This document shows, piece by piece, positions 5,030 through 55,990 of a stretch of DNA of 64,000 nucleotides. Within the stretch, counting starts at the first letter, position 1; every line of letters starts with the position of its first letter. The stretch covers positions 1 through 64,000 of the forward strand of contig NZ_JAJFAX010000010.1 of NCBI RefSeq assembly GCF_019710475.1, in the 5' to 3' direction. The notes under the pieces are model-generated. The model ran no database searches. It was not told where the DNA came from and worked only from the letters and a program-made list of their open reading frames with translations. Position numbers and translations under genes: made by a program. The DNA is from Glycomyces sp. TRM65418. Lineage in GTDB: Bacteria > Actinomycetota > Actinomycetes > Mycobacteriales > Micromonosporaceae.

Positions 5030-5055
5030 GGTGGTCTCCTTCGGTGCGGGTGCGG

Positions 5056-40349: not shown

Positions 40350-41098
40350 GCTGCCGGCTCCGCTTCTCTGCTGGTGACGAGGCGATGGACGAGGTAGGAG
40401 GCGACGTCGGACGGGGTGGTGCCGCGGGTGAAGATCCGGTCGACGCCCAGTTCGGCGGCGGCGTGCTCGTCGAAGCGGGGTCCGCCGACGACGAGCAGCG
40501 GGCGCTTCCCCGGCGGCAGGGCCTCGCGGAACGCGGCGGCCATCTCGCGGGTGTTGTGCAGGTGCGCGTCCTTCTGGGTGACGACCTGGCTCACGAGGAC
40601 GGCGTCGGCCTCCTCGTCCACGGCGCGGTTGACGAGGTCGGGGACGGCGACCTGCGCGCCGAGGTTCACCACGCGCAGTTCGCGGTAGTACTCCAGGCCC
40701 TTCTCCCCCGCGACGCCCTTGATGTTGAGGATCGCGTCGATGCCGACGGTGTGCGCGTCGGTGCCGATGCAGGCGCCGACGACGCAGAGCTTGCGGCCGA
40801 GCCGCTCGCGGATGGCGTCGTTGACTTCTTTGGGGCTCAGCTGGGGGTAGTCGCGTTCGACCACTTTGACGTCGTCGAGGTTGACGAGGTGCGTGGACGC
40901 GCCGTAGACCACGAAGAACGTGTAGCCCTCGCCGATGGCCTTGGCATGGACGAGCATCGCCCCGTCCAGGCCCATCTTGGCGGCGAGCTGGAGGGCCGCG
41001 CCCTCGGCGCGCTTGTCGTGCGGGACGGGCAGGGTGAAGGACAGCTGCACCATGCCGTCGCCGGTGGTGTCCCCGTAGGGCCTGACGATGCGGCTCAT
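40346..41098 (-). CDS. kamE: Lysine 5,6-aminomutase, B12-binding beta subunit
   Basis: The 250-residue subunit carries the cobalt-ligand motif DAHTVG with His116, and Lys127 eleven residues later in LNIKG. That matches His133 and the PLP-binding Lys144 of the clostridial enzyme in spacing. It forms a complex with KamD that moves the amino group of beta-lysine (or D-lysine) from carbon 6 to carbon 5. ATG 41098 overlaps the kamD stop by four bases. Confidence 0.93.
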   Translation of the reverse strand: MSRIVRPYGDTTGDGMVQLSFTLPVPHDKRAEGAALQLAAKMGLDGAMLVHAKAIGEGYTFFVVYGASTHLVNLDDVKVVERDYPQLSPKEVNDAIRERLGRKLCVVGACIGTDAHTVGIDAILNIKGVAGEKGLEYYRELRVVNLGAQVAVPDLVNRAVDEEADAVLVSQVVTQKDAHLHNTREMAAAFREALPPGKRPLLVVGGPRFDEHAAAELGVDRIFTRGTTPSDVASYLVHRLVTSREAEPAA

Positions 41099-42687: not shown

Positions 42688-42688
42688 G

Positions 42689-43750
42689 TCAGCGCCCCTC
42701 GGTCTCGACGTGGCCGACGCGCGCGGTGAACAGCTCCCGCAGACGCGGGTCGGCCCGCATGAGCTGGAGGGCGTACTCGGCGTGGCCGGGGACGTAGCCG
42801 TTGCCGATGAGCATCTCGACGTCGGCGGCCAGGCCTTCGGCGCCGAGGGCGGCGGCCGTGAAGGAGGTGGCCATCGAGAAGAAGACGACGGTGCCGCCGG
42901 CGGCGGTCGCGAGGATCGCGCCGTGTTCGCAGCCGGGCACGTCGACGCAGACGACGGTGACGTCGGCGCCGCGGCCGCGGAGGGCTCCGGTGACCTGTCC
43001 GGCGACGTCGATCGGCTCGGTGGCGTCGGCGACGACGATCGTGTCGGCGGTGCCGAGGCGTCGGATCTGGGCGGCCTCGATCTCGTCGCGGACGACGGCG
43101 ACGACCTCGGCGGCGTGGGCGTCGCGGGCGGCGGCGAGGGAGAGCGACCCGGACTTCCCGGCGGCGCCGAAGACGGCGACGGTGGTGGAGGCGTGGGCGC
43201 GGCGCGCGACGATGCGGCGGACGAGGGCGGGCGCGCCGCACACGTCGAGGACGGCGAGCGCGAGGTGCTCGGGCAGGTCCTCGGGGAGGGGGGCGGCGAT
43301 GGAGCGGCCGAAGAGGATCGCGTGCCCGGCGGCGGGGACCTGCTCGCTCAGGCCGTCCCAGCGGGCGAGCCCGTCGCTGATGTGCAGCGGGGTGAGGGTG
43401 AGGGAGACGAGGGTGGCGATCTTCTGGCCGGGTTCGAGGCCGAGCGGGGAGCGTTCGCCGACGGCGTCGACGGTGCCGATGAGCATGCCGCCGGAGCCGG
43501 TGGCGGGGTTGTGCATCTTGCCGCGGCGCTCGATGATGCCGAGGACTTCGGCCCGGATCCGTTCGCCGTCGCCGCCGTGCGCGGTATGGAGCTGCCGGTA
43601 GGAGGCCGCGTCGAGGTTGAGGCGCTCGACGCTGATGCGGGCCTCGTCGTCGGCGATGGCGGGGTCGGGGTCGAGCCGGTCGGCCGCTTGTGGCAGCGCT
43701 CCGGCGGGGCTGACGACTCGGTGCGATCCGACGGGTGAGCCTGTCGACAT
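42689..43750 (-). CDS. kdd: L-erythro-3,5-diaminohexanoate dehydrogenase
   Basis: The 353-residue protein oxidises 3,5-diaminohexanoate to 3-keto-5-aminohexanoate with NAD. It has an alcohol-dehydrogenase-like layout with an N-terminal substrate domain (KMHNPATGSGGMLIGTVDAVG) and a Rossmann fold (TVAVFGAAGKSGSLSLAAARD near residue 185). C-terminal segments such as FFSMATSFTAAALGAEG and GYVPGHAEYALQLM are typical of Kdd. AAGGGCGG precedes ATG 43750. It is the first gene of the minus-strand lysine operon, divergent from kamA. Confidence 0.93.
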   Translation of the reverse strand: MSTGSPVGSHRVVSPAGALPQAADRLDPDPAIADDEARISVERLNLDAASYRQLHTAHGGDGERIRAEVLGIIERRGKMHNPATGSGGMLIGTVDAVGERSPLGLEPGQKIATLVSLTLTPLHISDGLARWDGLSEQVPAAGHAILFGRSIAAPLPEDLPEHLALAVLDVCGAPALVRRIVARRAHASTTVAVFGAAGKSGSLSLAAARDAHAAEVVAVVRDEIEAAQIRRLGTADTIVVADATEPIDVAGQVTGALRGRGADVTVVCVDVPGCEHGAILATAAGGTVVFFSMATSFTAAALGAEGLAADVEMLIGNGYVPGHAEYALQLMRADPRLRELFTARVGHVETEGR

Positions 43751-43767
43751 CGTTGCCGCCCTTCTTG

Positions 43768-43782
43768 ATAACGGGATGTTAT
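43768..43782. promoter_or_regulatory. Inverted repeat 1 in the kdd/kamA divergent promoter
   Basis: ATAACGGGATGTTAT is a perfect 5-base inverted repeat (ATAAC/GTTAT) with a 5-base spacer, 18 bases upstream of the kdd ATG. It is a candidate operator for a lysine-responsive regulator. Confidence 0.55.
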
Positions 43783-43815
43783 GGAGTCTCAATATGCGGG
43801 ACCTAGCGCACAACT

Positions 43816-43830
43816 GTAACGGAAGGTTAT
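43816..43830. promoter_or_regulatory. Inverted repeat 2 in the kdd/kamA divergent promoter
   Basis: GTAACGGAAGGTTAT repeats the motif of the first site with one arm mismatch, exactly 48 bases away. Two equal dyads between divergent operons suggest shared control of both. Confidence 0.55.
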
Positions 43831-43903
43831 CCTCGTCACAAGGCGGATATCCTCCGTCTGCGACGTTTCTCCGGGCCCACATCCCGGACGTGGAGGTGAG
43901 AAG

Positions 43904-45448
43904 GTGTCGAATCGACCATCGGGAGAAGCAGCGCCGAATGACGACTCGCAGTCGTCGCCGGGCGCGCCCGTCATGATCGAGCAGCCTTACCAGTACCGGC
44001 GTCGCCAGCTGGTGGAACCCGACTGGACCCGGTTCCCCGGATGGGCCGACGTGACCGAGGCCGACTGGGCTTCGGCGCAGTGGCAGCGCGCGCACTGCGT
44101 CAAGAACGTGAAGCAACTTCGGGACGTGGTGGGCGACCGCCTCCACGAGTCGTTCTACGAGGACCTCGCCGCGGACATGGAGCGGTCCGCGACGATGTCG
44201 ATGCTCCTGCCGCCGCAGATGCTCAACACGATGGCGCCCGAGATCGAGGAGACCGGCGCGGGCTCCTGGACGGACGCGTTCTACGCCGACCCCGTGCGCC
44301 GCTACATGCTGCCGGTGGCCTCCGATCGGCGCACCGACTGGCCCTCGCACCCGTTCGCGGCCCGCGACTCCCTGCACGAGCACGACATGTGGGCGGTGGA
44401 GGGCCTCACCCACCGGTATCCGACGAAGGTGCTCGCCGAGCTGCTCTCGACCTGCCCGCAGTACTGCGGGCACTGCACCCGCATGGACCTCGTGGGCAAC
44501 TCGACGCCCACAGTGGACAAGCGGCGGCTCGCCCTCAAGCCCGTCGACCGGCAGACCGCGATCCTCGACTACCTCCAGGCCCACCCGGGCGTGCGCGACG
44601 TGGTCGTCTCCGGCGGCGACGTGGCGAACCTGCCGTGGAAGCAGCTGGAGCGGTTCCTCGAACGGCTGCTGGACGTCCCGACCATCCGCGACATCCGCCT
44701 CGCCACCAAGGCGCTCATGGGGCTGCCGCAGCACTGGCTGCAGGACGAGATCGTCGAAGGCATGGCCCGCGTCGCCAAGCGCGCCGCCGGCCAGGGGGTC
44801 AACCTGGCGATCCACACGCACGTCAACCACGTCAACTCGGTGACCCCGGCCGTCGCGCGAGCGGCGGCCGCGATGCTCGACGCCGGCGTGCGCGACGTGC
44901 GCAACCAGGGCGTGCTCATGAGGGGCGTCAACGACACCCAGGCCGACCTGCTCGACCTGTGCTTCGCGCTGCAGGGCGAGGCGAACATCCTGCCGTACTA
45001 CTTCTACATGTGCGACATGATCCCCAACGCCGAGCACTGGCGCACCTCGGTCGCGCAGGCGCAGGAGCTGCAGACGGCGATCATGGGCTACCTGCCGGGG
45101 TACGCGACGCCGCGGATCATCTGCGACGTGCCGATGGTCGGCAAGCGCTGGGTGCACCAGCTCTCCGAGTACGACCGGGAGCTCGGCATCTCGTACTGGA
45201 CCAAGAACTACCGGACCAGCATCGAGGCCGACGACCCGGACGCGCTCACCCGGCGCTACCCGTTCTACGACCCGATCGACACGCTGCCCAAGGCGGGCCG
45301 CGAGTGGTGGGCGAACATGCCCTTGCCCGCCGCCCCCGGCCACCCCGACCGGAATGGGCACTCGACTGATTCCCAGGTGCGGGCGCGGGAGGCGGGCGAC
45401 GCGGCAGCGGCGCGGTCGCGCGCGGCCTCGGCGGCGGAGGTCCTTTGA
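43904..45448 (+). CDS. kamA: Lysine 2,3-aminomutase
   Basis: The 514-residue radical SAM enzyme converts L-lysine to beta-lysine. Cluster cysteines C184, C188 and C191 lie in CPQYCGHC; VVVSGGDVANLP and IRLATKALMGLP follow, and the lysine-binding region includes the late MCDMIPNAEHWRTSVAQAQELQ segment. It is longer than clostridial KamA (416) owing to N- and C-terminal extensions. GTG 43904 has GGAGG eight bases upstream. Its stop overlaps the TTG start of kce by four bases. A second KamA-like gene is at 1040. Confidence 0.92.
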   Translation: MSNRPSGEAAPNDDSQSSPGAPVMIEQPYQYRRRQLVEPDWTRFPGWADVTEADWASAQWQRAHCVKNVKQLRDVVGDRLHESFYEDLAADMERSATMSMLLPPQMLNTMAPEIEETGAGSWTDAFYADPVRRYMLPVASDRRTDWPSHPFAARDSLHEHDMWAVEGLTHRYPTKVLAELLSTCPQYCGHCTRMDLVGNSTPTVDKRRLALKPVDRQTAILDYLQAHPGVRDVVVSGGDVANLPWKQLERFLERLLDVPTIRDIRLATKALMGLPQHWLQDEIVEGMARVAKRAAGQGVNLAIHTHVNHVNSVTPAVARAAAAMLDAGVRDVRNQGVLMRGVNDTQADLLDLCFALQGEANILPYYFYMCDMIPNAEHWRTSVAQAQELQTAIMGYLPGYATPRIICDVPMVGKRWVHQLSEYDRELGISYWTKNYRTSIEADDPDALTRRYPFYDPIDTLPKAGREWWANMPLPAAPGHPDRNGHSTDSQVRAREAGDAAAARSRAASAAEVL

Positions 45449-46284
45449 ACGGCACACTCATCACCGTGGCCCCCACGGGGGCCGAGGTGGACAAGCGCGA
45501 GGTCCCGGCACTGCCGGTGACACTCGAGGAACTGGTCGACACCGCCGTGCGGTGCGAGCGGGCGGGGGCCTCGGTCGTCCACGTGCACTTGCGGGACGAC
45601 GAGGCGAAGCCGACGCTGGATCCGGTGCGGCTGCGGGACGCCGTTGCGGCCCTTCGGGACGCGACGGACCTGATCGTCCAGCTCTCGACCGGCGGTGCGG
45701 TGACGGACCCGGAGGAGGCCCGTCTCGCGGTGCTCGACGCGGAGCCGGACATGGCCTCGTGCACCATGGGCACGGTGAACTTCGGCGACGGGGTGTTCAT
45801 GAACCGCTGGGAGTTCATCGTCGAGCTCCACGGGCGGATGCGGGAACTGGCGGTCGTCCCGGAGTACGAGCTGTTCGACCTGGGCCACCTCGCTTCGCTG
45901 GAACGCCTGCTGGACGAGCGCGGACTGCCGTTCGGCGAGCACGTGCACGTCGACTTCGTGCTGGGAGTGCCCGGGGGCGCGGCCGGAGACGCGGCCACGG
46001 TGACCGCCTTCGCGGAGGGGGTCCGCCGGTACCTCCCGGAGGGGACCACCTTCTCCGCCACGGGCATCGGCAGGACCACGCTGCCGGTCATGTTCGCCTC
46101 GCTGGCGCACGGCGGGCATCTGCGAGTGGGCATGGAGGACACGGTGTCCTTCGCGAGGCGCCGACCGGTGACGGGCAACGACCAACTCGTGGAGCGAGCG
46201 GCCCAGGCCGCGGCACTGGCACAACGACCCGCGATCACCACGGCCGAGGCGAGAAGGCTCCTGAACATCCGCGACGCCGACTGA
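45445..46284 (+). CDS. kce: 3-keto-5-aminohexanoate cleavage enzyme
   Basis: The 279-residue TIM-barrel enzyme (DUF849/BKACE family) cleaves 3-keto-5-aminohexanoate with acetyl-CoA to acetoacetate and 3-aminobutyryl-CoA. The zinc ligands His46 and His48 in VVHVHLRD and the active-site Glu14 sit at the same residue numbers as in the characterised Kce. The late GHLRVGMEDTV motif supplies the third metal ligand. TTG 45445 overlaps the kamA stop, so the two are co-translated. A hairpin follows downstream. Confidence 0.93.
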   Translation: MNGTLITVAPTGAEVDKREVPALPVTLEELVDTAVRCERAGASVVHVHLRDDEAKPTLDPVRLRDAVAALRDATDLIVQLSTGGAVTDPEEARLAVLDAEPDMASCTMGTVNFGDGVFMNRWEFIVELHGRMRELAVVPEYELFDLGHLASLERLLDERGLPFGEHVHVDFVLGVPGGAAGDAATVTAFAEGVRRYLPEGTTFSATGIGRTTLPVMFASLAHGGHLRVGMEDTVSFARRRPVTGNDQLVERAAQAAALAQRPAITTAEARRLLNIRDAD

Positions 46285-46335
46285 ACGGGAGCGGCAGCCC
46301 GCGAGTGGTCGATCGGCCGAGGTCGGGGCCATGAT

Positions 46336-46393
46336 GCTTCCGCACCGCGCGGACCGCGCTCGTGCACGAGCGCGGTCCGCGCGGTGCGGAAGC
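46336..46393. repeat. 58-base perfect palindrome (probable terminator)
   Basis: Two 29-base arms, perfectly complementary with no loop, begin GCTTCCGCACCGCG and meet at CGTGCACG. It lies 52 bases after kce and before the Crp/Fnr gene. It probably insulates the lysine operon from the defence-like locus. A second palindrome sharing the core GCGCGGACCGC closes that locus at 52012. Confidence 0.8.
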
Positions 46394-46430
46394 CGCTGGC
46401 GAGGCCAGGGATCGACGCTCACTCTTTCGG

Positions 46431-46446
46431 TGTCGTCAATGCGACA
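46431..46446. promoter_or_regulatory. CRP-geometry dyad upstream of the Crp/Fnr gene
   Basis: TGTCGTCAATGCGACA has 5-base arms (TGTCG/CGACA) with a 6-base spacer, the geometry of CRP/CooA sites. It ends 33 bases before the ATG at 46480 and suggests autoregulation. Confidence 0.5.
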
Positions 46447-46479
46447 GTCAGCGCTGCCGATTCTCGCTAAGAAGAGCGT

Positions 46480-47154
46480 ATGCCTCCCGTCCCCCCTCCT
46501 CACCGAACCCGTGGGTTCCTCGCCCTCACCACTCCTGAACAGTGGCGCGACCTCCTGCAGCACGGCAAGCGGCGTCCCGTCGAACGCGGCACGCGGCTGC
46601 TCGACCAAGGCGGCCCCAGCCGGCTCGTCTACGCGCTCGAGCATGGACGGGCCCGCGTCGTCTACACCGAGCACAATGGCGATGAGGTCCTCGTAGCCGT
46701 CCGCGGACCCGGAGACCTCGTGGGCGAATACGCGCAACGGGACCGCAGCAAGCACATGGCCTCGGTGTGGACCCTCGAGCAATGCGTCGTGACCGTGTTC
46801 ACCGCGGACGGTTTCGAAGGCGGCATCCGGCGCCACGATCTCGGCGAACCCCTGCAGCGCTACATGCTCGGCAAGGCCCGTCAGGTGGGCAAGCGGGTAT
46901 GGCGCGTCGCGCACCTCCGTGTGGAGCAGCGCATGGCGAAGCTCTTCCTCGAGATCATCGAAGCCGGTGTCGACGCCGAAGTGCACACGGTGCCGTTGTC
47001 CCAGAATCAGATCGCCGCCTCCCTCGGCGTCTCACTGAGTTCCGTGGCGCACCTGCTCGGCGCGTGGCGGCGAATCGGACTGGTCGAGACCCGGGCGTTC
47101 GAAATCGAGGTTCTCGACCTGCCGGCGCTGACCCGCAGGGCCGCAACGCGTTGA
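46480..47154 (+). CDS. Crp/Fnr-family regulator
   Basis: The 224-residue protein has an N-terminal cyclic-nucleotide-binding-like beta roll (RGTRLLDQGGPSRLVYALEHGRARVVYTEHNGDEVLVAVRGPGDLVGEYA), a long dimer helix (VGKRVWRVAHLRVEQRMAKLFLEIIEAG) and a C-terminal winged helix (VPLSQNQIAASLGVSLSSVAHLLGAWRRIGLVE). The phosphate-binding cassette is not a clean match to E. coli CRP, so ligand binding is uncertain. It is followed by a cyclase gene, so it may sense that cyclase's product or simply control the operon. Two CRP-type dyads flank it. Confidence 0.88.
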   Translation: MPPVPPPHRTRGFLALTTPEQWRDLLQHGKRRPVERGTRLLDQGGPSRLVYALEHGRARVVYTEHNGDEVLVAVRGPGDLVGEYAQRDRSKHMASVWTLEQCVVTVFTADGFEGGIRRHDLGEPLQRYMLGKARQVGKRVWRVAHLRVEQRMAKLFLEIIEAGVDAEVHTVPLSQNQIAASLGVSLSSVAHLLGAWRRIGLVETRAFEIEVLDLPALTRRAATR

Positions 47155-47176
47155 ACGTGTCGAGTACCACTGCCGA

Positions 47177-47194
47177 TCGTGCAATGTTGCACGA
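47177..47194. promoter_or_regulatory. CRP-type dyad upstream of the cyclase gene
   Basis: TCGTGCAATGTTGCACGA has perfect 8-base arms around a 2-base centre and contains GTG-N8-CAC, the spacing of canonical CRP sites. It lies 69 bases before the cyclase ATG and 22 bases after the Crp/Fnr stop. Confidence 0.6.
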
Positions 47195-47263
47195 CGACCG
47201 CTCATGAAAACCCCGAGGATCAGGAGGAATCACACCTGCCATACGGCATCACCGAGGAGTTCC

Positions 47264-48259
47264 ATGCACGACGTTCCCCATCAGACGCAACCCGAACCGC
47301 ACGACCTCACGATCCTCGCCCTCGACATCCGTCGCTTCAGCGATTTCACCGAAACCGAGCGCACTCGGATCGCCACCGAGTTCCGCGACTGCGTCGAGGC
47401 GTCCTTCGCCGGCGACCTTGCACCGGTCTGGAACGGACGGGTCTTCGAGCAGGACGGCGGCGACGGCATCGTCGTCGGTTTCCCCCGCAAGCACCTGCGC
47501 GACATCGTCGACGCGGTGCCTGCCGCACTCCAGCAGGAACTGCGCAAGCTCCACCAGCGGACCGGGCTCAACGTCCGGATGCGCATGGGCATCGGCGCCG
47601 GTCCGATCCAGTACACGCCGGACACGCGTGTCAGCACGGCACCGAACCAGCCGATCATCGACGCCTGCCGCATCGCCGACTCCGAGCCGGCCCGGCTGCT
47701 CTTGGAGAACTCCGACAAGGACGCCACCTTCCTGGCCGTGGCGGTCACGGCGACGGTCATGACCGAGACGATCGGCCCGGACCCGCGAGGGCTCAGGGCC
47801 TCCGAGTTCGTGGAGGTACGGGTGGACACCAAGAAGAAGCAGTACCAAGCCACCGCCTTCCTGCACGTCCCCTCCCCTTCCGGCGCGCTGCTGCGATACG
47901 GACTCCTGAATCTCCACGGCAGTCCCCTCTCGACCGATGACTCGGCATCCCCGCTGGAGGAGCTGATCAAGCACGCGAAGCAGACCTGGCCGGCCGCACA
48001 GGGCACCGCCGAAGTGGCGGCCGCCCGGATCGGCAGCGTCGACATCGACAAGGAGTCGGTGCGGACCGGCGATGTCGGCGAACGCGCCGTCGTCGCCGGT
48101 GCGAACAGCCGAGTCCACAACGACAGCCGCGATCAGCGCAGCTACGTCGGGCGCGACAGCGTCGTCAGCCACGGCGGCAATGCCCGGGTCACGAACGTCG
48201 GCCGCGACGAGGATCGCATCCGCCCCTTCTGGCTCGACGAGGAAGATGACCGCACATGA
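47264..48259 (+). CDS. Class III nucleotidyl cyclase with tandem C-terminal motif (PycC-like)
   Basis: The 331-residue protein has a single class III cyclase domain (residues 15-215). Both metal aspartates are present: Asp21 in ALDIRRFS and Asp67 in DGGDGIVVGF; MRMGIGAGPIQY and NQPIIDACRIAD fit the later strands. The C-terminal 75 residues are low-complexity and carry two copies of a motif, GDVGERAVVAGANSRV and YVGRDSVVSHGGNARV. GAGGAG at 47254-47259 selects ATG 47264. With a PycTM-like gene in the same cluster, a cUMP/cCMP-making Pycsar cyclase is likely; an adenylate cyclase is the alternative. Its end overlaps the next gene by four bases. Confidence 0.8.
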   Translation: MHDVPHQTQPEPHDLTILALDIRRFSDFTETERTRIATEFRDCVEASFAGDLAPVWNGRVFEQDGGDGIVVGFPRKHLRDIVDAVPAALQQELRKLHQRTGLNVRMRMGIGAGPIQYTPDTRVSTAPNQPIIDACRIADSEPARLLLENSDKDATFLAVAVTATVMTETIGPDPRGLRASEFVEVRVDTKKKQYQATAFLHVPSPSGALLRYGLLNLHGSPLSTDDSASPLEELIKHAKQTWPAAQGTAEVAAARIGSVDIDKESVRTGDVGERAVVAGANSRVHNDSRDQRSYVGRDSVVSHGGNARVTNVGRDEDRIRPFWLDEEDDRT

Positions 48260-48405
48260 CGGATATCCCTCAAGACCCGGTGACCGAGACGCCCCCAGAA
48301 GGCGCCATCGACACCGAGCTCTCGCCCGAGACCGCGGCGGCGCCCCCGCAATCGAGCGGGACCGCGGCTTCCGGTGATCAGATCGGGCGCGACAGCGTCG
48401 TCAGC
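48147..48405 (+). repeat. 23-base exact repeat encoding the shared motif in two genes
   Basis: A 23-base sequence starting TCGGGCGCGACAGCG occurs at 48147-48169 (end of the cyclase gene) and again at 48383-48405 (start of the next gene). The surrounding codons continue to match at the protein level. Both copies encode GRDSVVS in frame, so the repeat reflects one shared protein motif rather than a mobile element. Confidence 0.85.
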
Positions 48406-50307
48406 AACGGCGGGGACGCGAAGGTCGAGAACATCACCAACAACTTCTACCGCAGCAGGATCGCCCTCGCTCGGTACGCCGCCGAGCACGGCACGGTCGA
48501 CCGCGACCTCAAGGGCATCGTCGATCCGCCTGACGGCCGCGAGCACCTGAGAGCCCTCGGCGCCACTCGGGTCCTGGTCCTCACCGGGCCGTCCCACTCG
48601 GGGCTGCCCACCGCCGCGAGCTGCCGCTGGGTGCAGTTCGCGAAAGGCGCGGGCGATCTCCCACTCCGAGTGCTCCACCCCGACAACCGCGACGACCTCC
48701 AGACCCTGGTGGACCAGAGCGAGCCGGGCACGGTGCAGCTTCTCGACTCCTCGAGCGACAGCGAACTCGGCCGGGACATCGTCGAGCTGCTCCCCCGCTT
48801 CCAGGCGGCGATGCGCGACCGGGGCAGCTACCTCGTCATCGCCGTCGGGGACCAATGCCACTCCCGAGCGATCGCCTCGCTGCCGGGATCCGTGTTCGCC
48901 CTCGGCAAGCCGGATCAGCGGCTGGTCCTCGCCACCTACCTCCGCAAGGACATCGCCATCGCGCCGCTGCTCGCCAACGAGCGTTTCAAGGCGATGCTCG
49001 CCGAATGCTGGCCTCCGCGGGTCGAGAAGCTCGCGGCGATCATCAACGACGCCGGCCCGGACGCCGATGTCGACGAACTCGTCGACGGCCTCGACGCGTT
49101 CGTCGAAGACTGGTCGGGCGAGCTGGAACTGCTCGTCGAGGCATTCGAGCCCGACACGCGCGCTTTGCTGGTCGCCGCCGCCGCGATGGAAGGCGCCTCG
49201 GCCGGGGCCGTCGCCTTGGCCGCCGACTGGTTCATGGACATCGTCGGGTTCGAAGGACCTCATCGGGACATGCTGCGCATGCGCCTCCTCGCTCAGCGGT
49301 TCGAACCGCTCAAGGAGGTGTTCCGGATCGAAGGAGCAGGCACGGCGTTCACCGAGAGCGGCTACGGGGAAGCGGTGCTGCCGGTGCTGTGGGAGCAGTT
49401 CCCCTCCTGGAGGGAGCCCATGCGCGAATGGTTCGACCGGCTCCTGCTCCCCTCGTCCTATCTGGATGACGAGCCGACCGCGCGGCTGCTGCTGCGGCTG
49501 CTCGAACTCGCGTCGCATCTGGGCGATGCGACCTTGGTCCTCGAGAGGGCCTCGAAGCTGCTCTCCGGCCGGTCCACGAACTACCGGCAGGGCCTGACCA
49601 CGGACCTGCTGATCGCGGCCGCGACCGATCCCTCCATCGGGAGGCAGACGCGCTACCAGCTCTGGCGCTGGGCGAAGAACTGGGACGACGGCTCGGAAGC
49701 ACTGCAGCGCACCGTGGTCGCGACCTGCGCCAGCACGGAGTACACCGAGCGCTACCCGGACAACGCGATGCGTCGGCTGAAGCACCTGGTGAAATCGCGC
49801 GACCACAAAGTGCACCGGCAGGCGCTCGAGGCCGTCGTCGACCTCGGCGCGTCCATGCCGACGCGCTCGATGTTCCTGCACATGTCGGAGTGGTTCTCCG
49901 GTGACCGCGGGAACCGGCTCCGCCTTGCCGCGCCCGACATGGCGGTGCGGCTCCTCGGCAGCGACAGCGTCATCGCCCGGATCCGCGACCGTCCCGGAGC
50001 CCTGGAGGGCGCTCGGGAGTTCGCGGTTCGATTCCTGCAGCGACTGTTCGCCTCCGCCTCGTCCGACCAGGTGCGGTCCGTGGTCACCGCGTGGCTCGCG
50101 CTCGCAGACAAGCTCGACTACCCGGACCGGGAGCATGCGGTCGCCATGCTGTCAGCGGCCGCCGCTGAGGACATCCTCGCCATCGGCCAACTCGCACAAG
50201 CGGTGAGCCACGGCGTCTGGGTCGACCGACCCGACGCCGACCGACGCCGACCCATGCTCGAGCGCCTTCGCGCCGACCTCTCTCGAATGGAAGTGCCCCT
50301 GTCGTGA
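48256..50307 (+). CDS. P-loop-like helical-repeat protein with N-terminal homotypic motif
   Basis: The 683-residue protein has a disordered N-terminus, then QIGRDSVVSNGGDAKVENIT (residues about 42-61), matching the cyclase C-terminus. A nucleotide-binding-like region follows: VLVLTGPSHSGLPTAAS near residue 108 resembles a Walker A loop in which the Lys is replaced by Leu, so ATP binding is doubtful. The remainder is helical with HEAT/TPR-like segments (ARLLLRLLELASHLGD, RLKHLVKSRDHKVHRQALEAVVDLG). I do not recognise a named family; the layout resembles STAND/NLR-like sensors. It overlaps both neighbours by four bases. Confidence 0.75.
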   Translation: MTDIPQDPVTETPPEGAIDTELSPETAAAPPQSSGTAASGDQIGRDSVVSNGGDAKVENITNNFYRSRIALARYAAEHGTVDRDLKGIVDPPDGREHLRALGATRVLVLTGPSHSGLPTAASCRWVQFAKGAGDLPLRVLHPDNRDDLQTLVDQSEPGTVQLLDSSSDSELGRDIVELLPRFQAAMRDRGSYLVIAVGDQCHSRAIASLPGSVFALGKPDQRLVLATYLRKDIAIAPLLANERFKAMLAECWPPRVEKLAAIINDAGPDADVDELVDGLDAFVEDWSGELELLVEAFEPDTRALLVAAAAMEGASAGAVALAADWFMDIVGFEGPHRDMLRMRLLAQRFEPLKEVFRIEGAGTAFTESGYGEAVLPVLWEQFPSWREPMREWFDRLLLPSSYLDDEPTARLLLRLLELASHLGDATLVLERASKLLSGRSTNYRQGLTTDLLIAAATDPSIGRQTRYQLWRWAKNWDDGSEALQRTVVATCASTEYTERYPDNAMRRLKHLVKSRDHKVHRQALEAVVDLGASMPTRSMFLHMSEWFSGDRGNRLRLAAPDMAVRLLGSDSVIARIRDRPGALEGAREFAVRFLQRLFASASSDQVRSVVTAWLALADKLDYPDREHAVAMLSAAAAEDILAIGQLAQAVSHGVWVDRPDADRRRPMLERLRADLSRMEVPLS

Positions 50308-51254
50308 CCGGATTCTTCGTCATCCTCATCCTCGCGGCCGTCATCGTCGGCGCTTGGAAGATCTACGCGTCCCAGAAGTCCCCGGCCGCCGCGTATGCGC
50401 CGGCCGCCCCGGCCTTCGTCCCGCCGACACCGCTGTACGAGGTCGCGACGGTACGGCTCGATCTGCCCAGCGTGGTGCCGGCATTCCGCTTCAACTGCGA
50501 GTTCAGTGTCAGGTACCGCACCGACAACGCCGTTTCCTCCGGCCCCGACCCGCTGACAGCGGTGAAGTCGGCGATCCAAGCGGAGGCGCGGACGATCACC
50601 GCCGCATACGCATTGGACGGCGACATGGGCCTCCTCGAGTACGAGTTGGACGTGGCCTTCCAGGCGGGAATGACCGACGGGGGCAGGCCGGTCGATTTCA
50701 GCGCCCAGTGCCTCGCGATCGCCTGCGACTCCGCGGAGCAGAAGCTGGTGAAGGAGGTGTCGCTCCGCAAGTTCAGGCTGGAGGTCGAGAACCACCTCGA
50801 AGAGGCGTACCGGACCCGCATCCGGCAGTTGGACGAGTTCTTCTCCGAGCCTCGCAGCGCGGCGCTCTGGTGGTTCGCTCAGAACCCCGACAAGATCGAC
50901 CAGCTCCCCAACAAGATCAAGCTGATGTACAAGGTCGACCGGAGCCTGCACCACGAAGGGGCCGAAGGCGGCGTCTCCTGGTTCGACCCCGAGCATCCTG
51001 ACGGGCTGCAGGCCGCCGACCTGAGCGACTTCCTGGCCACCTCGGATCTGTCGTCGCGTGCCGCTGTCGGCACGCTGCTCGGCAACACGTACGAGCGGTT
51101 CGGCCGGGCGGATCTGGCTCAGCGGGCCAGGATGCTCGCCGAGGCTCCGGAGCCCGAACCCGAACGGGATCCCGAGCCCGAGCCCGAATCTCAGCCCGCG
51201 CCCGACACCTGGCCGGTGGCCGACGCGGAAGGTTCCGAGCCTGAACGGGAGTGA
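50304..51254 (+). CDS. Membrane-anchored protein of unknown function
   Basis: The 316-residue protein begins with one membrane helix (FFVILILAAVIVGAWKIY), then a Pro/Ala-rich linker. A cytosolic alpha/beta domain follows, with VRLDLPSVVPAFRFNCEFSVRY and AVKSAIQAEARTITAAY, faintly like an SPFH/stomatin domain. A helical stretch and an acidic Pro-Glu-rich tail (PEPEPERDPEPEPE) end it. GTG 50304 overlaps the previous stop (GTGA). The family is not recognised. Its place between the P-loop protein and the PycTM-like gene suggests a scaffold or membrane adaptor for that system, which is inference. Confidence 0.75.
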   Translation: MTGFFVILILAAVIVGAWKIYASQKSPAAAYAPAAPAFVPPTPLYEVATVRLDLPSVVPAFRFNCEFSVRYRTDNAVSSGPDPLTAVKSAIQAEARTITAAYALDGDMGLLEYELDVAFQAGMTDGGRPVDFSAQCLAIACDSAEQKLVKEVSLRKFRLEVENHLEEAYRTRIRQLDEFFSEPRSAALWWFAQNPDKIDQLPNKIKLMYKVDRSLHHEGAEGGVSWFDPEHPDGLQAADLSDFLATSDLSSRAAVGTLLGNTYERFGRADLAQRARMLAEAPEPEPERDPEPEPESQPAPDTWPVADAEGSEPERE

Positions 51255-51389
51255 CCTGTAGACCGGTTGCGGCGCAAAGACGATGACGTCGGTCGTCACC
51301 TCCGGTCTCCCGATCTTGCAGGCCCGCGTCGACGGTGTTCACGCCGTCGATGCGGGCACCGCTCCGTTCCCGATCGCGCGGAGGTTGAT

Positions 51390-51941
51390 GTGACCGACTC
51401 AGATGCCGAGCACGGCTCGACGGCGGTGCCGCCGGAGCCCGACCAGGCTTGGAAGATACTGCTGCTGGTCAACGACTGGGTGCGCCATGCCGAGACCAAA
51501 CTCGCCGCCACGCTCGCGGCGGCCGGCATCAGCGGCGGCGTGCTGTTCAATCTGGTGACCGATCAGCACGAGACCAGCCTCGCGTTCAATCTCGCCGCGG
51601 TCATTTGCTGCACCGCGGTCATCCTCGCCGGCGTCTCCGCGATCGTCGGCCTGTATCCCGTGCTCGCCGTCCGCCGTCGGGGCCCTGACGACACCGCCAG
51701 CCTGATCTACTTTCACGACATCGAACACCGGTATCGGAACGACTACCCCGCTTTCCGGACGGCGCTTCACACTCTCACGACCGATGCGGATCTGCTCACA
51801 GATCACCTGAGCCGGCAGATCCACGCCAACGCCGCAGTCGCCGATCGCAAGTTCCGATGGGCGAACCTCGCCATCCGTACGCTGCTCATCGACCTGCTGG
51901 CGCTCGGCGCCCTGACATTGATCATCGCCTTGGGCCTTTGA
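51390..51941 (+). CDS. PycTM-like membrane effector (Pycsar effector, DUF5706-type)
   Basis: The 183-residue protein has two membrane helices (about 38-56 and 66-94), a cytosolic helical segment, and a third helix at 160-181. The pattern WVRHAETKLAATLAAAG, IYFHDIEHRYRNDYPAF, and LSRQIHANAAVADRKFRWANLAIRTLLIDLL is that of Pycsar transmembrane effectors, which respond to cUMP or cCMP and damage the membrane. GGAGG at 51380-51384 selects GTG 51390. It is 135 bases after the previous gene and has no close downstream partner; a palindrome follows. Confidence 0.78.
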   Translation: MTDSDAEHGSTAVPPEPDQAWKILLLVNDWVRHAETKLAATLAAAGISGGVLFNLVTDQHETSLAFNLAAVICCTAVILAGVSAIVGLYPVLAVRRRGPDDTASLIYFHDIEHRYRNDYPAFRTALHTLTTDADLLTDHLSRQIHANAAVADRKFRWANLAIRTLLIDLLALGALTLIIALGL

Positions 51942-52011
51942 ACAGGCCCTGTCGAACCTGTGGCCGGTGATCCGGTCGCGGCCCGCTCGGGAAGGCGATC
52001 GGGCGGACGCA

Positions 52012-52049
52012 GGAAGCGGTCCGCGCCGGATCCGGCGCGGACCGCTTCC
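52012..52049. repeat. 38-base perfect palindrome (probable terminator)
   Basis: Two 19-base arms meet at GGATCC without a loop, between the PycTM-like stop and the convergent small membrane gene. It shares the GCGCGGACCGC core with the 58-base palindrome at 46336, so the two bracket the Crp-cyclase-effector cluster. Confidence 0.75.
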
Positions 52050-52090
52050 GGTCGTTTCCGGAAGCTAGGTCGTGGCGGGCAAGGCTGCGG

Positions 52091-52396
52091 TCAGTCGCGC
52101 CAGCGGCGGCGGCCGACCCCCGAGAGGATTCCGCCGATCGCCAGGTAGATCAGGGCCGCGATGCCGTAGTTGACGACGGCGCGGACCTTCGGGTCCTCGA
52201 TCTGCGTGAACATGTCCTTGAACAGCCACGCGAACCAGTTGGCGCAGTCCGCGATGAAGTTCACCAGCGGGTTGCCCGGGTTGGCCTCGAGCAGGATGAA
52301 CGCGAGGTGCAGCAGGATGATCAGGGCGATCAGTCCGAAGACCGCCGAGATGATGTGCACGATGACGGGGTTGTGACGGGTGGCGACGTAAGGCAT
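52091..52396 (-). CDS. Small two-to-three-helix membrane protein
   Basis: The 101-residue protein has a first hydrophobic helix (VIVHIISAVFGLIALIILLHLAFILL), an amphipathic middle (CANWFAWLFKDMF), and a last helix (YGIAALIYLAIGGILSGV) before an Arg-rich end. Homologues of this size are common in actinomycetes but uncharacterised. ATG 52396 fits with a weak upstream GGA. It is convergent with the PycTM-like gene and divergent from the ABC exporter. Confidence 0.75.
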   Translation of the reverse strand: MPYVATRHNPVIVHIISAVFGLIALIILLHLAFILLEANPGNPLVNFIADCANWFAWLFKDMFTQIEDPKVRAVVNYGIAALIYLAIGGILSGVGRRRWRD

Positions 52397-52544
52397 GACG
52401 ATTCCATTCGCTTCGATTATCTGTCGCGCTTGGACAGCGGAGTATCCCGTTGAGGTGCGGCGCAAACAAGTTGCGTCGAAGCGTCGGATAGACGACCGTT
52501 TATGCGCTTTCCGGAATACCGGTCGGCCGGTAAGCTTGGATCCC

Positions 52545-54221
52545 ATGCCTTCCCGACCTCGGCCGCTCCGACCGAAGCGGCCGATCACCCCGCTGCGGCT
52601 CCTCGTCGGCCTCGCCCGGCCCCACAAGGGCCGCATCGCGCTCGGCGCGCTCTTCTACCTCCTCGCCGGCTCGGCATCGATGGCGCAACTGTGGATGATC
52701 GGCCGGATCGTGGACGAGGGCTTCATCGCCCGCGACGGTTCCGGCCTCGTGTTCTGGTTGTCGCTCACCGCACTCGCCGTGATCGCGCAGCCCGTCTTCT
52801 GGTCGCTGGGCTTCCGGCAGTTCGTCGGCGCCGAGGCGGCCGGCCAGCGCGCGATCGTGCGGCGCCTCACCGACCACCTCAACGCCGCCGGAACCGGCGT
52901 GCGCGGACGCGTCCCGGCCGGCGAGCTGGTGAACCTGCCCAGTGAGGACACTCGCAGGGCCGCCCGCTCGATCGCCGACGTCGGGTTCTTCTTCAACAAC
53001 TTCGCGATGTTCACCGTCGGCTCGGCGCTGGTGTGGTCGATCCACCCGCTGTTGGGCGTCGTGATCATCGCGGGGAGCGCCGTCACCTCGGTCGTCACCG
53101 GCCCGCTGCTGGGCCGCCTGCAGCGCCGCCAGTCCGACTACCGGGAGATGATCGGCGACCTGACCGCGCACGCGGCCGACATCGTCGGCGGGCTGCGGGT
53201 CCTGCGCGGCATCGGCGGGGACGTCCTGTTCGCCGAGCGGTACCGGGAGCGCTCGTCGGCCCTGCGGGACAAGGGGTACCGCGTCGCCAACTCGAGTTCG
53301 TGGATCCACGCGATGCGGCACTCGATGCCGATCGTGTTCGTCGCCGCGATCACCTGGACCGGTGCCATCCTGGCCGCCGACGGCGCGATCACCATCGGCG
53401 GGCTCGCCTCGGCGTTCAGCTTCGCGACGGTGTTCATCGCCGTCTCGGGCAACTTCATCGGGCTCGCGCACTTCCTGGTGGCCGCCTGGGTGGCCGCCGG
53501 GCGCATCGCCGGGTTCCTGCACGTCGGCCCCGACGTGGACGACAGCGGGACGGTGCGCGGTGGCGGCGGCGAACTCCGCGATCCCGAATCGGGCCTGACC
53601 GTCCCGGTCGGCGGCCTCACCGCGGTGGTCACCGCGGAGACCGCTCCGGCGCTGGAGGCGTGCGAGCGGCTGGCCCGCTACCGCGATTCCGAGGCGGTCT
53701 GGGGGGCGAGGCCGCTGGAGGCGTACGCGCTCGCGGAGGTGCGCGAGCGGATCATGCTCCTGACCGACGAGGACTACCTGTTCGCGGGCACGCTCGCCGA
53801 GACCCTGCGGGCCGACCGGAACCGGGCGCTCGCGGCGATCGAGACCGCCTGCGCCGCCGACGTGTACAGCGGCCTCGGCGGTTCCCTGGACGGCCGGGTC
53901 GCCGAGGGCGGGCAGAACCTCTCGGGCGGTCAACGCCAGCGCCTGCGCCTGGCTCGCGCGATCGCGGCCGAACCGGAGATCCTGCTGGCGGTGGAGCCGA
54001 CCTCGGCCGTGGACGCGCACACCGAGTCACTGGTGGCCCGGCGGGTGGCCGCGGCCCGCGCCGGTAAATCCACAGTGGTCGTCGCCGCTTCGCCGATGTG
54101 GCTGGCCCGGGCCGACCGGGTGGTGTGGATGGTCGAGGGCAAGGTCCACGCCGTCGGGTCCCACGCCGAGCTGCTGGACGACCCGGCCTATCGCCGTCTC
54201 GCCTCGCACCGGGCCGACTGA
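52545..54221 (+). CDS. ABC exporter half with degenerate ATPase site
   Basis: The 558-residue protein has six membrane helices in an ABC type-1 fold, then a nucleotide-binding domain. The Walker A loop is lost (GLTAVVTAETAPALEA in its place). Walker B reads LLAVEPTSAVD with Asp replaced by Val, the Q-loop has Asp (LLTDEDYLF), and the H-loop reads VVVAASPMW without His. The signature LSGGQRQRLRLARA is intact. This half therefore lends its signature to the partner's ATP site and is otherwise inactive. ATG 52545 starts the typical N-terminus. Its stop overlaps an ATG of the partner frame. Confidence 0.9.
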   Translation: MPSRPRPLRPKRPITPLRLLVGLARPHKGRIALGALFYLLAGSASMAQLWMIGRIVDEGFIARDGSGLVFWLSLTALAVIAQPVFWSLGFRQFVGAEAAGQRAIVRRLTDHLNAAGTGVRGRVPAGELVNLPSEDTRRAARSIADVGFFFNNFAMFTVGSALVWSIHPLLGVVIIAGSAVTSVVTGPLLGRLQRRQSDYREMIGDLTAHAADIVGGLRVLRGIGGDVLFAERYRERSSALRDKGYRVANSSSWIHAMRHSMPIVFVAAITWTGAILAADGAITIGGLASAFSFATVFIAVSGNFIGLAHFLVAAWVAAGRIAGFLHVGPDVDDSGTVRGGGGELRDPESGLTVPVGGLTAVVTAETAPALEACERLARYRDSEAVWGARPLEAYALAEVRERIMLLTDEDYLFAGTLAETLRADRNRALAAIETACAADVYSGLGGSLDGRVAEGGQNLSGGQRQRLRLARAIAAEPEILLAVEPTSAVDAHTESLVARRVAAARAGKSTVVVAASPMWLARADRVVWMVEGKVHAVGSHAELLDDPAYRRLASHRAD

Positions 54222-54247
54222 TGACCGCTTCGACCGAAGGAGACCGC

Positions 54248-55990
54248 ATGGGCGCCGACGTCGCGACCGCCGCGCGCCTGCCGATCGCCGACGCTCGCCA
54301 GGTGCGGCGGGCCTTCATGCGGCTGCTCGCCGCCGACCGGGGCCGGGCGATCCAGGTCCTCGTCCTCTACACGCTCGCGGCCGGATGCACCGTCGCGGTC
54401 CCGATGCTCCTGGGCCGGGTCGTCGACGGGATCGGCGCGGGTTGGAGCATCGAACGCATCAACCTGGTGTGCGGCCTCATCGTCGCGGCCGTGGCCGTGC
54501 AGTTCGTGCTCAGCCGCCTGGGACGGCGCGCGGGCTACCGCTTCGGCGAGCGCGCCGCCGCGCGGCTGCGCGAGGGCGTCGTCACGAAAGTGCTCGGGCT
54601 GCCGCTCGGCCGGGTCGAGCAGGCCGGACGGGGCGACCTCGGCACCCGGACCGCCGCCGACGTGAACACCGTCGCGGATCTGCTGCGGGACAACGGACCG
54701 ACGGTGGCGACCGCGCTCATCGAGGTGGTGGTGCTGTACGTCGCCACGTTCCTCATCGATCCACTGCTGGGCCTGTGCGCCCTGGTGACGGTGCCGCCGC
54801 TGCTGCTGGCGGCCCGCCGGTACCTGCGCCGGGCGAGCGGGGCGTTCCTGGCGCAGCGCGCGGCCATGAGCGAGGCCGCCGAGACCCTGTCGGCATCGGG
54901 CGCGGGAGCCCGGACGGTGGCGGCGCTCCGACTCCAGCAGGAGCGGCGCGAGGCCGGCCACGCCCGCGCCGAGACCATGTACCGGCGGTTCATGCGGGTG
55001 CTGCGCTTGCAGATCGAGTTCTTCCTGGTGCTGTTGTGGCTCAACCGGTTCCAGTTGGTCATCGTGGTCGCCGCCGCCGGGCTCTGGTACTTCCAGGGCG
55101 GGCTGAGCCTGGGCACGGCGGTCGCGGCGATCACCGTGACCGTCCGGATCGCCAACCCGACCAACGCGGTCATGGTGCAGCTCAACGAATTCCAGCAAGG
55201 CGCGGCCTCCCTCGCGCGCATCGAGGGCGTGAACCTCATCCACGTGGAGCCGCGGACGGCGGTGCCGGAGGGGAACGACCTGCGCCTGGACGCGGTGACG
55301 TTCGGCTACGGCGACGGCCCCGACGTGCTGCACGGGCTGAGCCTCCACCCGCGCCCGGGCGAGCGGCTGGTCGTCGTGGGCCCCTCCGGGGCCGGGAAGT
55401 CGACGATCGCGCGGCTGCTCGCGGGGATCGACCGGCCGCGCACCGGGACGGCCACGCTGGGCGGCGTCCCGGTGGGCGACATCGCGGTCGAGGAGCTGCG
55501 CCGCCGGGTCGTCCTGGTGACCCAGGAGCATTACGTGTTCACCGCGACCCTGCGCGAGAACCTCGTGCTCGCCGCACCGGACGCGGACGACGACCGGCTC
55601 GTCGAGGGCCTGCGGCGCGTCGACGCCGGATGGGCCGTCGCGGCCGGGCTCGACACGATGCTCGGCCCGGAGCACCGGCCGCTGAGCACCGCCGAGGCGC
55701 AGCAGATCGCGCTCGCCCGCGTCGTCATCGCCGACCCCGCGATCGTGATCCTCGACGAGGCCACGGCCGGGATCGACCCGGCCAGCGCGGGCAATGTGGA
55801 GGCGGCCCTGGCGGCGGCCCTCGCGGGCCGCACGGTCATCGCGATCGCCCACCAGTTGCAGGCGGCCCGCTCGGCCGACCGGATCGCGGTGGTCGAGCGC
55901 GGGCGGATCGTCGAGGACGGCACGCACGAGGAGCTGCTGGCGGCGGGCGGCGTGTACGGGGGGCTTTGGCATGCGTGGCAGGGCGACTGA
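54248..55990 (+). CDS. ABC exporter half with the catalytic ATPase site
   Basis: The 580-residue protein has six membrane helices and a nucleotide-binding domain with a canonical Walker A (GPSGAGKST), Q-loop (LVTQEHYVF), Walker B with catalytic Glu (VILDEATAGID) and H-loop His (IAIAHQLQ). Its signature is degenerate (LSTAEAQQIALA). It complements the other half exactly, so the two form a heterodimer with one working site. AAGGAGA at 54237-54243 selects ATG 54248; an ATG overlapping the upstream stop at 54221 is possible. Substrate unknown, probably a drug or lipid. Confidence 0.92.
   Translation: MGADVATAARLPIADARQVRRAFMRLLAADRGRAIQVLVLYTLAAGCTVAVPMLLGRVVDGIGAGWSIERINLVCGLIVAAVAVQFVLSRLGRRAGYRFGERAAARLREGVVTKVLGLPLGRVEQAGRGDLGTRTAADVNTVADLLRDNGPTVATALIEVVVLYVATFLIDPLLGLCALVTVPPLLLAARRYLRRASGAFLAQRAAMSEAAETLSASGAGARTVAALRLQQERREAGHARAETMYRRFMRVLRLQIEFFLVLLWLNRFQLVIVVAAAGLWYFQGGLSLGTAVAAITVTVRIANPTNAVMVQLNEFQQGAASLARIEGVNLIHVEPRTAVPEGNDLRLDAVTFGYGDGPDVLHGLSLHPRPGERLVVVGPSGAGKSTIARLLAGIDRPRTGTATLGGVPVGDIAVEELRRRVVLVTQEHYVFTATLRENLVLAAPDADDDRLVEGLRRVDAGWAVAAGLDTMLGPEHRPLSTAEAQQIALARVVIADPAIVILDEATAGIDPASAGNVEAALAAALAGRTVIAIAHQLQAARSADRIAVVERGRIVEDGTHEELLAAGGVYGGLWHAWQGD

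Follow-up and report, generated by a model that had tools for sequence, protein, structure and literature searches.

Matching terminal motifs suggest a receptor-operated nucleotide cyclase switch in Glycomyces and related actinomycetes

The 64,000-nucleotide (nt) stretch of Glycomyces sp. TRM65418 DNA analyzed here (contig NZ_JAJFAX010000010.1, positions 1 to 64,000; "the window") encodes a predicted class III nucleotide cyclase, P0001, whose C-terminal tail shares a short motif with the N-terminal end of the STAND/NLR-like receptor P0002, encoded by the next gene. Across homologous loci these two ends remain matched while the motif itself changes, which suggests that the receptor turns the enzyme on directly, through assembly of like with like. 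A receptor-operated second-messenger switch is, in our judgment, the best explanation of the whole and a reasonably probable one. The two genes and the motif copies concerned are the following.

47264..48259, + strand: class III nucleotide cyclase P0001, 331 amino acids, core at residues ~10-205 and tail at 242-331, as predicted with AlphaFold, Foldseek, and VIA
48077..48115, + strand: copy 1 of the cyclase-tail motif, GERAVVAGANSRV, weak; seen in the sequence, in a region aligned in relatives
48149..48190, + strand: copy 2 of the cyclase-tail motif, GRDSVVSHGGNARV; from the repeat and alignment scores
48256..50307, + strand: STAND/NLR-like receptor P0002, 683 amino acids, with the motif, an NTPase fold (~94-285), and alpha-helical repeats, as predicted with AlphaFold, Foldseek, and VIA
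48385..48426, + strand: receptor-head motif, GRDSVVSNGGDAKV; from repeat, shuffle, and genome-wide scores

An initial annotation of this DNA had proposed a motif shared by the cyclase C terminus and the N terminus of the next protein, with a 23-base exact DNA repeat beneath the two closest copies, and both proposals are borne out. The motifs are underlain by a direct repeat of 53 nt at 81% (48147-48199 and 48383-48435), with an exact 23-nt core at 48147 and 48383; the sole other offset among direct exact 23-mers in the 64 kb comes from two tandem paralogues, at 4.7 and 5.6 kb. The P0001 tail and the P0002 head align with a score of 69, where shuffling gives 30 on average and 1 of 20,000 shuffles attains 69, and in a separate run of 5000 shuffles with a slightly longer tail the largest shuffled score was 74. 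When the motif was searched genome-wide, the next-best match had an E value of 0.38, versus 0.012 for the P0002 copy, and none other was credible. The shuffles and the genome-wide search rule out a chance match. The two tandem copies claimed for the cyclase can both be located, but they are less alike than had been stated: aligned with the P0002 motif, copy 1 reaches a score of only 26, and it is recognized mainly from homologue alignments and from L025, a sister locus of L024, where the receptor motif pairs with the first one of the tail (GPVSGPGAMGVVNAGTVNQ / GDVSGPGATGALNADTVNQ) and not with the last.

Of 150 genomes from the family, 17 have a match to P0002. Order-wide, 67 of 397 genomes match a 12-row receptor alignment and 86 of 397 match an 11-row cyclase alignment, both tallies counting the genome of the window itself. 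The pairing test covers 54 loci: the window, 11 loci from the family search (L019-L029), two from Kutzneria obtained in the cyclase scan (L045 and L046), and 40 that are the surroundings of the best receptor matches outside the genus (L077-L116); six weak STAND matches (L030-L035) were excluded. A second set of 20 loci (L177-L196) was picked by the cyclase alone in other orders of the class, from the best-scoring places of a scan with matches in 61 of 394 genomes at E<=1e-20, skipping G163, which belongs to the same order, and a second place in G839 that contains stops. The receptor-effector adjacency of the 54 loci recurs in this second set, where a hidden Markov model (HMM) identifies the following gene as a receptor in 16/20. 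At L184, L188, and L191 the next gene encodes 667-726 amino acids, with motif scores of 73, 57, and 103 and no HMM match, and at L186 it has neither an HMM match nor a matching motif.

For each locus, the C-terminal 130 residues of the protein encoded before the receptor were aligned locally (BLOSUM62, gaps 11/1) to the receptor head, taken up to the P-loop. Own-partner scores sum to 3245 over the 54 loci, against 1764±70 when partners are permuted, and none of 20,000 permutations reaches the observed sum; a gap penalty of 9 gives the same outcome (3361 versus 1926±73, 0/20,000). Among 36 de-duplicated loci, with receptor cores <50% identical, the sum is 2115 versus 1170±57 permuted (0/20,000), and shuffled receptor heads at these loci give 1023±31. 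The pairing is also seen within each of four groups covering 51 of the 54 loci (L027-L029 are ungrouped), all loci of each being counted: Glycomyces (9 loci, 597 versus 397, 1/20,000), clade B (11 loci, 649 versus 487, 0/20,000), the other cyclase group (17 loci, 1129 versus 562, 0/20,000), and the non-cyclase group (14 loci, 722 versus 499, 0/20,000). After de-duplication the latter two, with 13 and 11 loci, still give 0/20,000 each. The second set yields 1198 versus 736±61 over 16 loci (0/20,000). A partial Mantel test on 32 of the 40 cyclase loci, with receptor-core and cyclase-core similarity controlled, gives r = 0.37 (0/5000), and in the same 32 loci receptor heads score on average 64.5 against their own cyclase tail, 28.6 and 29.2 against X, the product of the gene after the receptor, and 26.9 against the Crp regulator encoded before the cyclase.

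The pairs of L022 (GNVFSGDVTTGEGGTVNAFGGDQHNN / GNVFHGEVSTGEGGTVNAFGGDQHNN), L108 (RQGGTGDINGNGNITLTGAQGTVHIGD / RQGGTGDINGDNNVNLTGSHGRVWRGD), and L045 (SVRIGNVDNNSGVVVGTNS / TVEIGDVDRNQGVVIGSNT) illustrate this; motif types therefore vary widely while most partners remain matched. Co-variation in homologous pairs had been named as a check on the initial annotation, and it is what we observe, with motifs matching within loci and differing between them. From this co-variation, the putative coupling by homotypic motifs appears well supported.

Similarity across a gene junction could also be a by-product of DNA exchange, through repeat expansion or gene conversion, that carries no coupling function. 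The exact 23-nt repeat of the window fits such an origin, and shared codons exceed expectation in the window pair (11 versus 6.3) and in the L022 pair (21 versus 15.1), so some exchange is possible in both. Over the 40 pairs scoring >=45, however, the codon is shared at 360 of 634 identical aligned residues, close to the 316 expected from codon usage, which argues against recent copying as the general origin, and on this ground we rejected recent gene conversion as an overall explanation. In addition, loci with differing motifs are still paired, and motif types survive an exchange of the effector, as described below. We consider DNA exchange a very improbable explanation of the whole.

The gene before the receptor encodes this cyclase at 40 of the 54 loci, a protein with a TIR_2 match at 13 (11 above the Pfam cut-off), and a small family-less protein at L110. 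The TIR proteins bear the same kind of motif before the same receptor family. Effector type changes four times on a receptor tree built by a quick method (67 rows, omitting six near-copies, L185, and four second-set loci without a STAND HMM match, and with "Bell" labels assigned by eye to L030, L031, L034, L035, and L110); well-supported branches force at least two changes for the cyclase label, and 13 TIR and 15 cyclase loci lie inside one supported clade. The TIR tail of L107 scores 76 against the head of cyclase locus L114 and that of L097 scores 91 against L111, with means of 30 for cross-type scores and 60 for own pairs. A private match that is kept between adjacent genes while the enzyme swaps is as expected of an adaptor.

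Small upstream proteins with motif-like ends are also observed at L030, L031, L034, and L035, and nothing clear is seen at L032 and L033. The small proteins preceding the receptors of those four loci and of L110 end in motifs such as VIQVGRDNSGEIN. By eye they resemble Bell-type BASS effectors, and no library model matched them with a good E value.

Neither P0001 nor P0002 matches Pfam, NCBIfam, or PADLOC at E<=1, and PDB sequence searches with both gave nothing useful; their assignment comes from predicted structure. The AlphaFold model of P0001 has a predicted local distance difference test score (pLDDT) mostly of ~90 in the core and below 50 in the tail, a low value that here, as in the P0002 head, may partly stem from shallow alignments (11 and 12 rows, respectively). 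Foldseek matches of P0001 comprise CyaC (3.0e-7), Cya2, Ma1120, and the uridylate cyclase 8jsz (2.3e-5), and VIA places the model on Ma1120 (5d0h) with a Z of 17.0 and 2.4 Å across 157 residues. Asp21 and Asp67, which we take to be the metal-binding Asp residues of class III cyclases, are invariant in 26/26 aligned homologues. By its model, P0001 is a genuine class III cyclase fold, and its tail is probably disordered. P0002 is modeled with a mean pLDDT of 78; residues 1-80 are nearly all below 50 and are followed by an NTPase fold and helical repeats. Its best Foldseek matches are the STAND protein 6mfv (5.7e-4) and NOD2 (6.3e-4), the VIA match to the NRC3 resistosome (Z of 11.5, 4.0 Å across 190 residues) is tied with many AAA+ proteins, and its relative at L094 matches nSTAND3 at 9e-7. 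P0002 is thus a STAND/NLR-like receptor by predicted fold, and we call it STAND-like because its P-loop (48571-48618) is degenerate.

Class III cyclases form active sites between two chains, so a receptor that gathers cyclase tails would switch the enzyme on. We envisage P0002 as the sensor, which once activated would cluster and expose its N-terminal motif. That motif would nucleate the cyclase tail by homotypic templating, most likely of beta/amyloid type, and cyclase monomers gathered on the assembly would complete two-chain active sites and make a cyclic nucleotide. In the available portion of a 2024 structural paper, cyclases isolated as monomers are described as able to dimerize into an active form, the question is raised of whether PycC is activated in this way, and oligomerization as a cyclase activation step is said to need study (PMC11224242). 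The initial annotation's view that an adaptor motif couples a sensor to an effector fits the STAND-like fold, the cyclase fold, the co-variation, and the effector exchange.

Pairs of an NLR with a Bell, TIR, or CHAT protein linked by bacterial amyloid signaling sequences (BASS) were reportedly described by Dyrka et al. in 2020. As far as the accessible parts of three papers go (PMC7889193, PMC8086366, and PMC12261475), the present loci resemble BASS systems in their adjacent or overlapping genes, in having a receptor N-terminal and an effector C-terminal motif, in motifs that are similar within pairs and diverse between families, in the presence of TIR effectors, in occurring mainly in filamentous actinobacteria and cyanobacteria, and in a motif repeated on the effector side, as it is in HET-s r1/r2 and BASS4. 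They differ in having a class III cyclase as effector, in the window in place of a Bell domain, and in its linkage to a Crp regulator and a palindrome; the word "cyclase" is absent from the accessible main text of all three papers. A further likeness, one of arrangement, is to the fungal prion signaling of HET-s/NWD2, where according to part of one source the effector tail holds two pseudo-repeats and the receptor head one (PMC8086366); here the system is bacterial, the effector is an enzyme, and one tail copy is weak.

By analogy with BASS, amyloid would be the likeliest among the homotypic options. The initial annotation had gone further and read paired end motifs as the signature of amyloid adaptors, which does not hold, since homotypic tails alone are no signature. 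Several generic amyloid predictors do poorly on such motifs, as stated in the available part of PMC8086366. A homotypic adaptor of another kind, based on the exchange of short beta strands, on stacked beta-solenoids, or on a small folded pair like that of effector-associated domains (EADs), would leave the coupling identical and predicts all of the pairing evidence equally well. EAD-type homotypic coupling of cyclic nucleotide monophosphate (cNMP) cyclases to STAND/VMAP proteins is indeed described in the accessible parts of Kaur et al. 2020 and 2021 (PMC7159879 and PMC8195603), which in EAD and Death-like systems place a homotypic domain in the STAND/VMAP core and in the adjacent effector, with TIR also among the effectors. 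The adaptor in those systems is a domain, whereas the present one is a short motif within a tail that is probably disordered, and no EAD was matched in P0001 or P0002 by Pfam or NCBIfam (the EAD coverage of these libraries being unchecked). Both motif regions have a pLDDT below 50, as disordered regions do, and a short, Gly/Asn/Val-rich, locus-variable motif at facing ends is what the available BASS text describes, so a non-amyloid adaptor seems to us on the unlikely side.

Because cyclases coupled homotypically to STAND/VMAP proteins are already in print, in the same two partly available papers, the general wiring is not new, contrary to what had been proposed. What a literature search of open-license papers did not turn up is narrower: a cyclase that relies on so short a motif and has a Crp loop of its own. 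In that literature we found no paper joining an amyloid signaling motif, a cyclase, and bacteria, and PMC8195603, in its accessible part, is alone in joining cyclase, amyloid, NACHT, Actinobacteria, and effector.

A candidate regulatory loop lies directly before the cyclase; neither its Crp regulator and operator nor a PycTM gene farther downstream figures in the initial annotation.

46480..47154, + strand: Crp/Fnr-family regulator P0004 with a cNMP-binding domain (Pfam PF00027, 8.9e-14) and HTH_Crp_2 (PF13545, 9.6e-12); upstream homologue in 40/40 cyclase loci
47177..47194, no strand: perfect palindrome TCGTGCAATGTTGCACGA, candidate Crp operator; unique in the genome at <=2 mismatches; at other loci this gap has palindromes of a related, non-identical consensus

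The upstream Crp homologue was detected at 39 of the cyclase loci by phmmer and at L099 by tblastn; tblastn missed three loci where phmmer finds it (L109, L115, and L116). None was found by either program upstream of the 14 non-cyclase loci, four of which gave phmmer no upstream candidate. In the second set, a Crp match lies within the fetched stretch in 19/20; the contig of L188 stops ~180 nt past the cyclase. The gap between Crp and cyclase contains TGTCCRNNNNYGGACA, a TGTCC/GGACA palindrome, at <=2 mismatches in 44/60 loci (28 exact). When random stretches were drawn from these loci 200 times, 1.7 loci on average and never more than 5 contained it. The pattern was derived from some of the tested loci, the control relied on that pattern too, and L188 is without gap sequence. 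Across 12 whole genomes, picked for exact TGTCCA-type sites at their loci, TGTCCANNNNTGGACA is found before the cyclase in 12/12 and at no other site in 10/12. The Crp recognition helix, read by eye, has Arg-Ser at the 25 loci of the alignment whose TGTCC sites are exact and Leu-Ser at the same place in the window, L024, and L025, whose sites are altered. Since the palindrome is nearly unique in the genomes searched and the helix varies with the site, the regulator looks private to its operon. In an alignment of Crp from 39 of the 40 cyclase loci (without L099), also read by eye, the cyclic-nucleotide cassette has Gly-Glu in 35/39 rows, Gly-Asp in four, and Arg in 31/39; we take this Gly-Glu and Arg to be the cyclic-nucleotide/phosphate-binding residues of Crp. 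The dedicated Crp would read the nucleotide, whichever the cyclase makes, bind the palindrome, and act back on the operon as activator or brake.

The same parts could serve development or stress in multicellular actinomycetes, with receptor, cyclase, and Crp forming a bistable gene switch that has no role in anti-phage immunity. A Crp site confined to its own operon in 10 of the 12 genomes would suit this, as would the PADLOC results, with no match for P0001-P0003 at E<=1 and weak ones (0.001-0.004) to the receptors of two relatives. Presence of the cyclase in 10 of 22 Glycomyces genomes is patchy, however, and this patchiness and the exchange with TIR effectors look like defense; we regard a purely developmental role as doubtful. 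A more ambitious form of the receptor-operated switch, which we put forward tentatively as a possibility short of even chances, is a prion-like cyclase switch with two locks. Here, the NLR-like receptor would template cyclase polymerization through insulated, lineage-specific motifs and the Crp would target its own operon only, so that templating and a transcriptional loop private to the operon would strengthen or restrain one another in a widespread, unnamed actinomycete circuit, immune or developmental, with cyclase and TIR as interchangeable outputs.

Besides the codon excess of the window pair and the shallow alignments behind the low pLDDT values, several observations weigh against the receptor-operated switch or parts of it. 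The own partner is top of its row at 21/54 loci, 16/36 after de-duplication, and 8/16 in the second set, partly because relatives share motif types. Ten of the 54 pairs (L019, L024, L026, L029, L098, L100, L101, L103, L113, and L115) score <40, near the permuted level, and the small groups lose power on de-duplication (Glycomyces, 6 loci, 418/20,000; clade B, 3 loci, 3318/20,000). The motif matched no PDB sequence, which bears on the amyloid state. In 28/28 aligned receptors the Walker A Lys is replaced (by eye), with Leu in Glycomyces, Arg in many others, and Gln or another residue elsewhere, which makes a nucleotide-driven NLR cycle doubtful; the receptor of L110, outside the 28, keeps it. 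On the regulatory side, the palindrome of the window is four mismatches from the common consensus, and His takes the place of the cassette Arg in the window and at seven other Glycomyces loci. The window Crp may not bind an ordinary cNMP because it has His-Met at this position, and the ligand of the Glycomyces Crp is uncertain from its sequence. Lastly, locus L212 in Glycomyces genome G869 has a cyclase, a Crp, and a motif-like tail with no STAND match beside them. A second locus of that genome, L213, is complete and holds another matched motif pair, RDKHQYEA / RDKHQYQA.

Two further genes follow the receptor.

50304..51254, + strand: P0003 (X), with a hydrophobic N-terminal segment in the window; present in 52/54 loci by a lenient iterated search
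51387..51941, + strand: PycTM, Pycsar 2TM effector (Pfam PF18967, 1.2e-13; PADLOC PycTM, 3.6e-27)

Together they extend a run on the + strand of Crp/Fnr regulator, cyclase, receptor, P0003, and PycTM, with 4-nt overlaps at P0001/P0002 and P0002/P0003. PycTM begins 133 nt past P0003, with a GTG picked as its start, after GGAGG. No Pfam family matched P0003; the X family accompanies the receptor at cyclase and TIR loci alike, and many members have one or two hydrophobic N-terminal segments.

A class III cyclase fold with PycTM downstream recalls Pycsar, and these genes could be read as a Pycsar defense operon whose cyclase acts on PycTM, with accessory roles for the receptor and Crp. The proximity of PycTM, the resemblance of the P0001 fold to the uridylate cyclase 8jsz, and the cNMP-binding domain of the Crp, with a weak PADLOC PycTIR match (2.4e-5), all favor this. 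The PADLOC PycC model, however, does not match P0001, whose likeness to 8jsz is by fold only, and the linkage to PycTM is confined to the window. The host genome carries three PycTM copies, two of them elsewhere, and PycTM is present in 11 of the 22 Glycomyces genomes; it adjoins the cyclase only here and in the nine other cyclase-bearing genomes is either not found or elsewhere. The conserved neighbors of the cyclase are instead Crp, the STAND-like receptor, and X, and among the relatives examined nearly all have Crp and X together with the cyclase-receptor pair. PycTM may be a local addition, and as a conserved output it was rejected; we find a Pycsar operon quite unlikely.

Should the receptor-operated switch be correct, a receptor with a matching tail would be a direct candidate activator for class III cyclases, including those of Pycsar type, and amyloid-type immune signaling would reach beyond killing proteins and TIR/CHAT effectors to second-messenger enzymes. 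The diverse motif pairs would offer a natural set for probing insulation among prion-like pathways, and a Crp that has close to a single site per genome could serve as a clean reporter.

The host is a soil bacterium with a genome of 5.09 Mb in 37 contigs. No sigma-70-type promoter was found in 46280-52100. Among 72,556 plasmid records, P0001 has no match and P0002 a single distant one, on a Streptomyces plasmid (27%). To the left of the operon (41095-46284) lie lysine-breakdown-type genes, among them those for a D-lysine 5,6-aminomutase alpha subunit and a beta-keto acid cleavage enzyme, and to the right (52395-55990) are two ABC transporter proteins. The tandem paralogues at 4160-5922 are dehydrogenase-like and have near-identical stretches at an offset of 893 nt.

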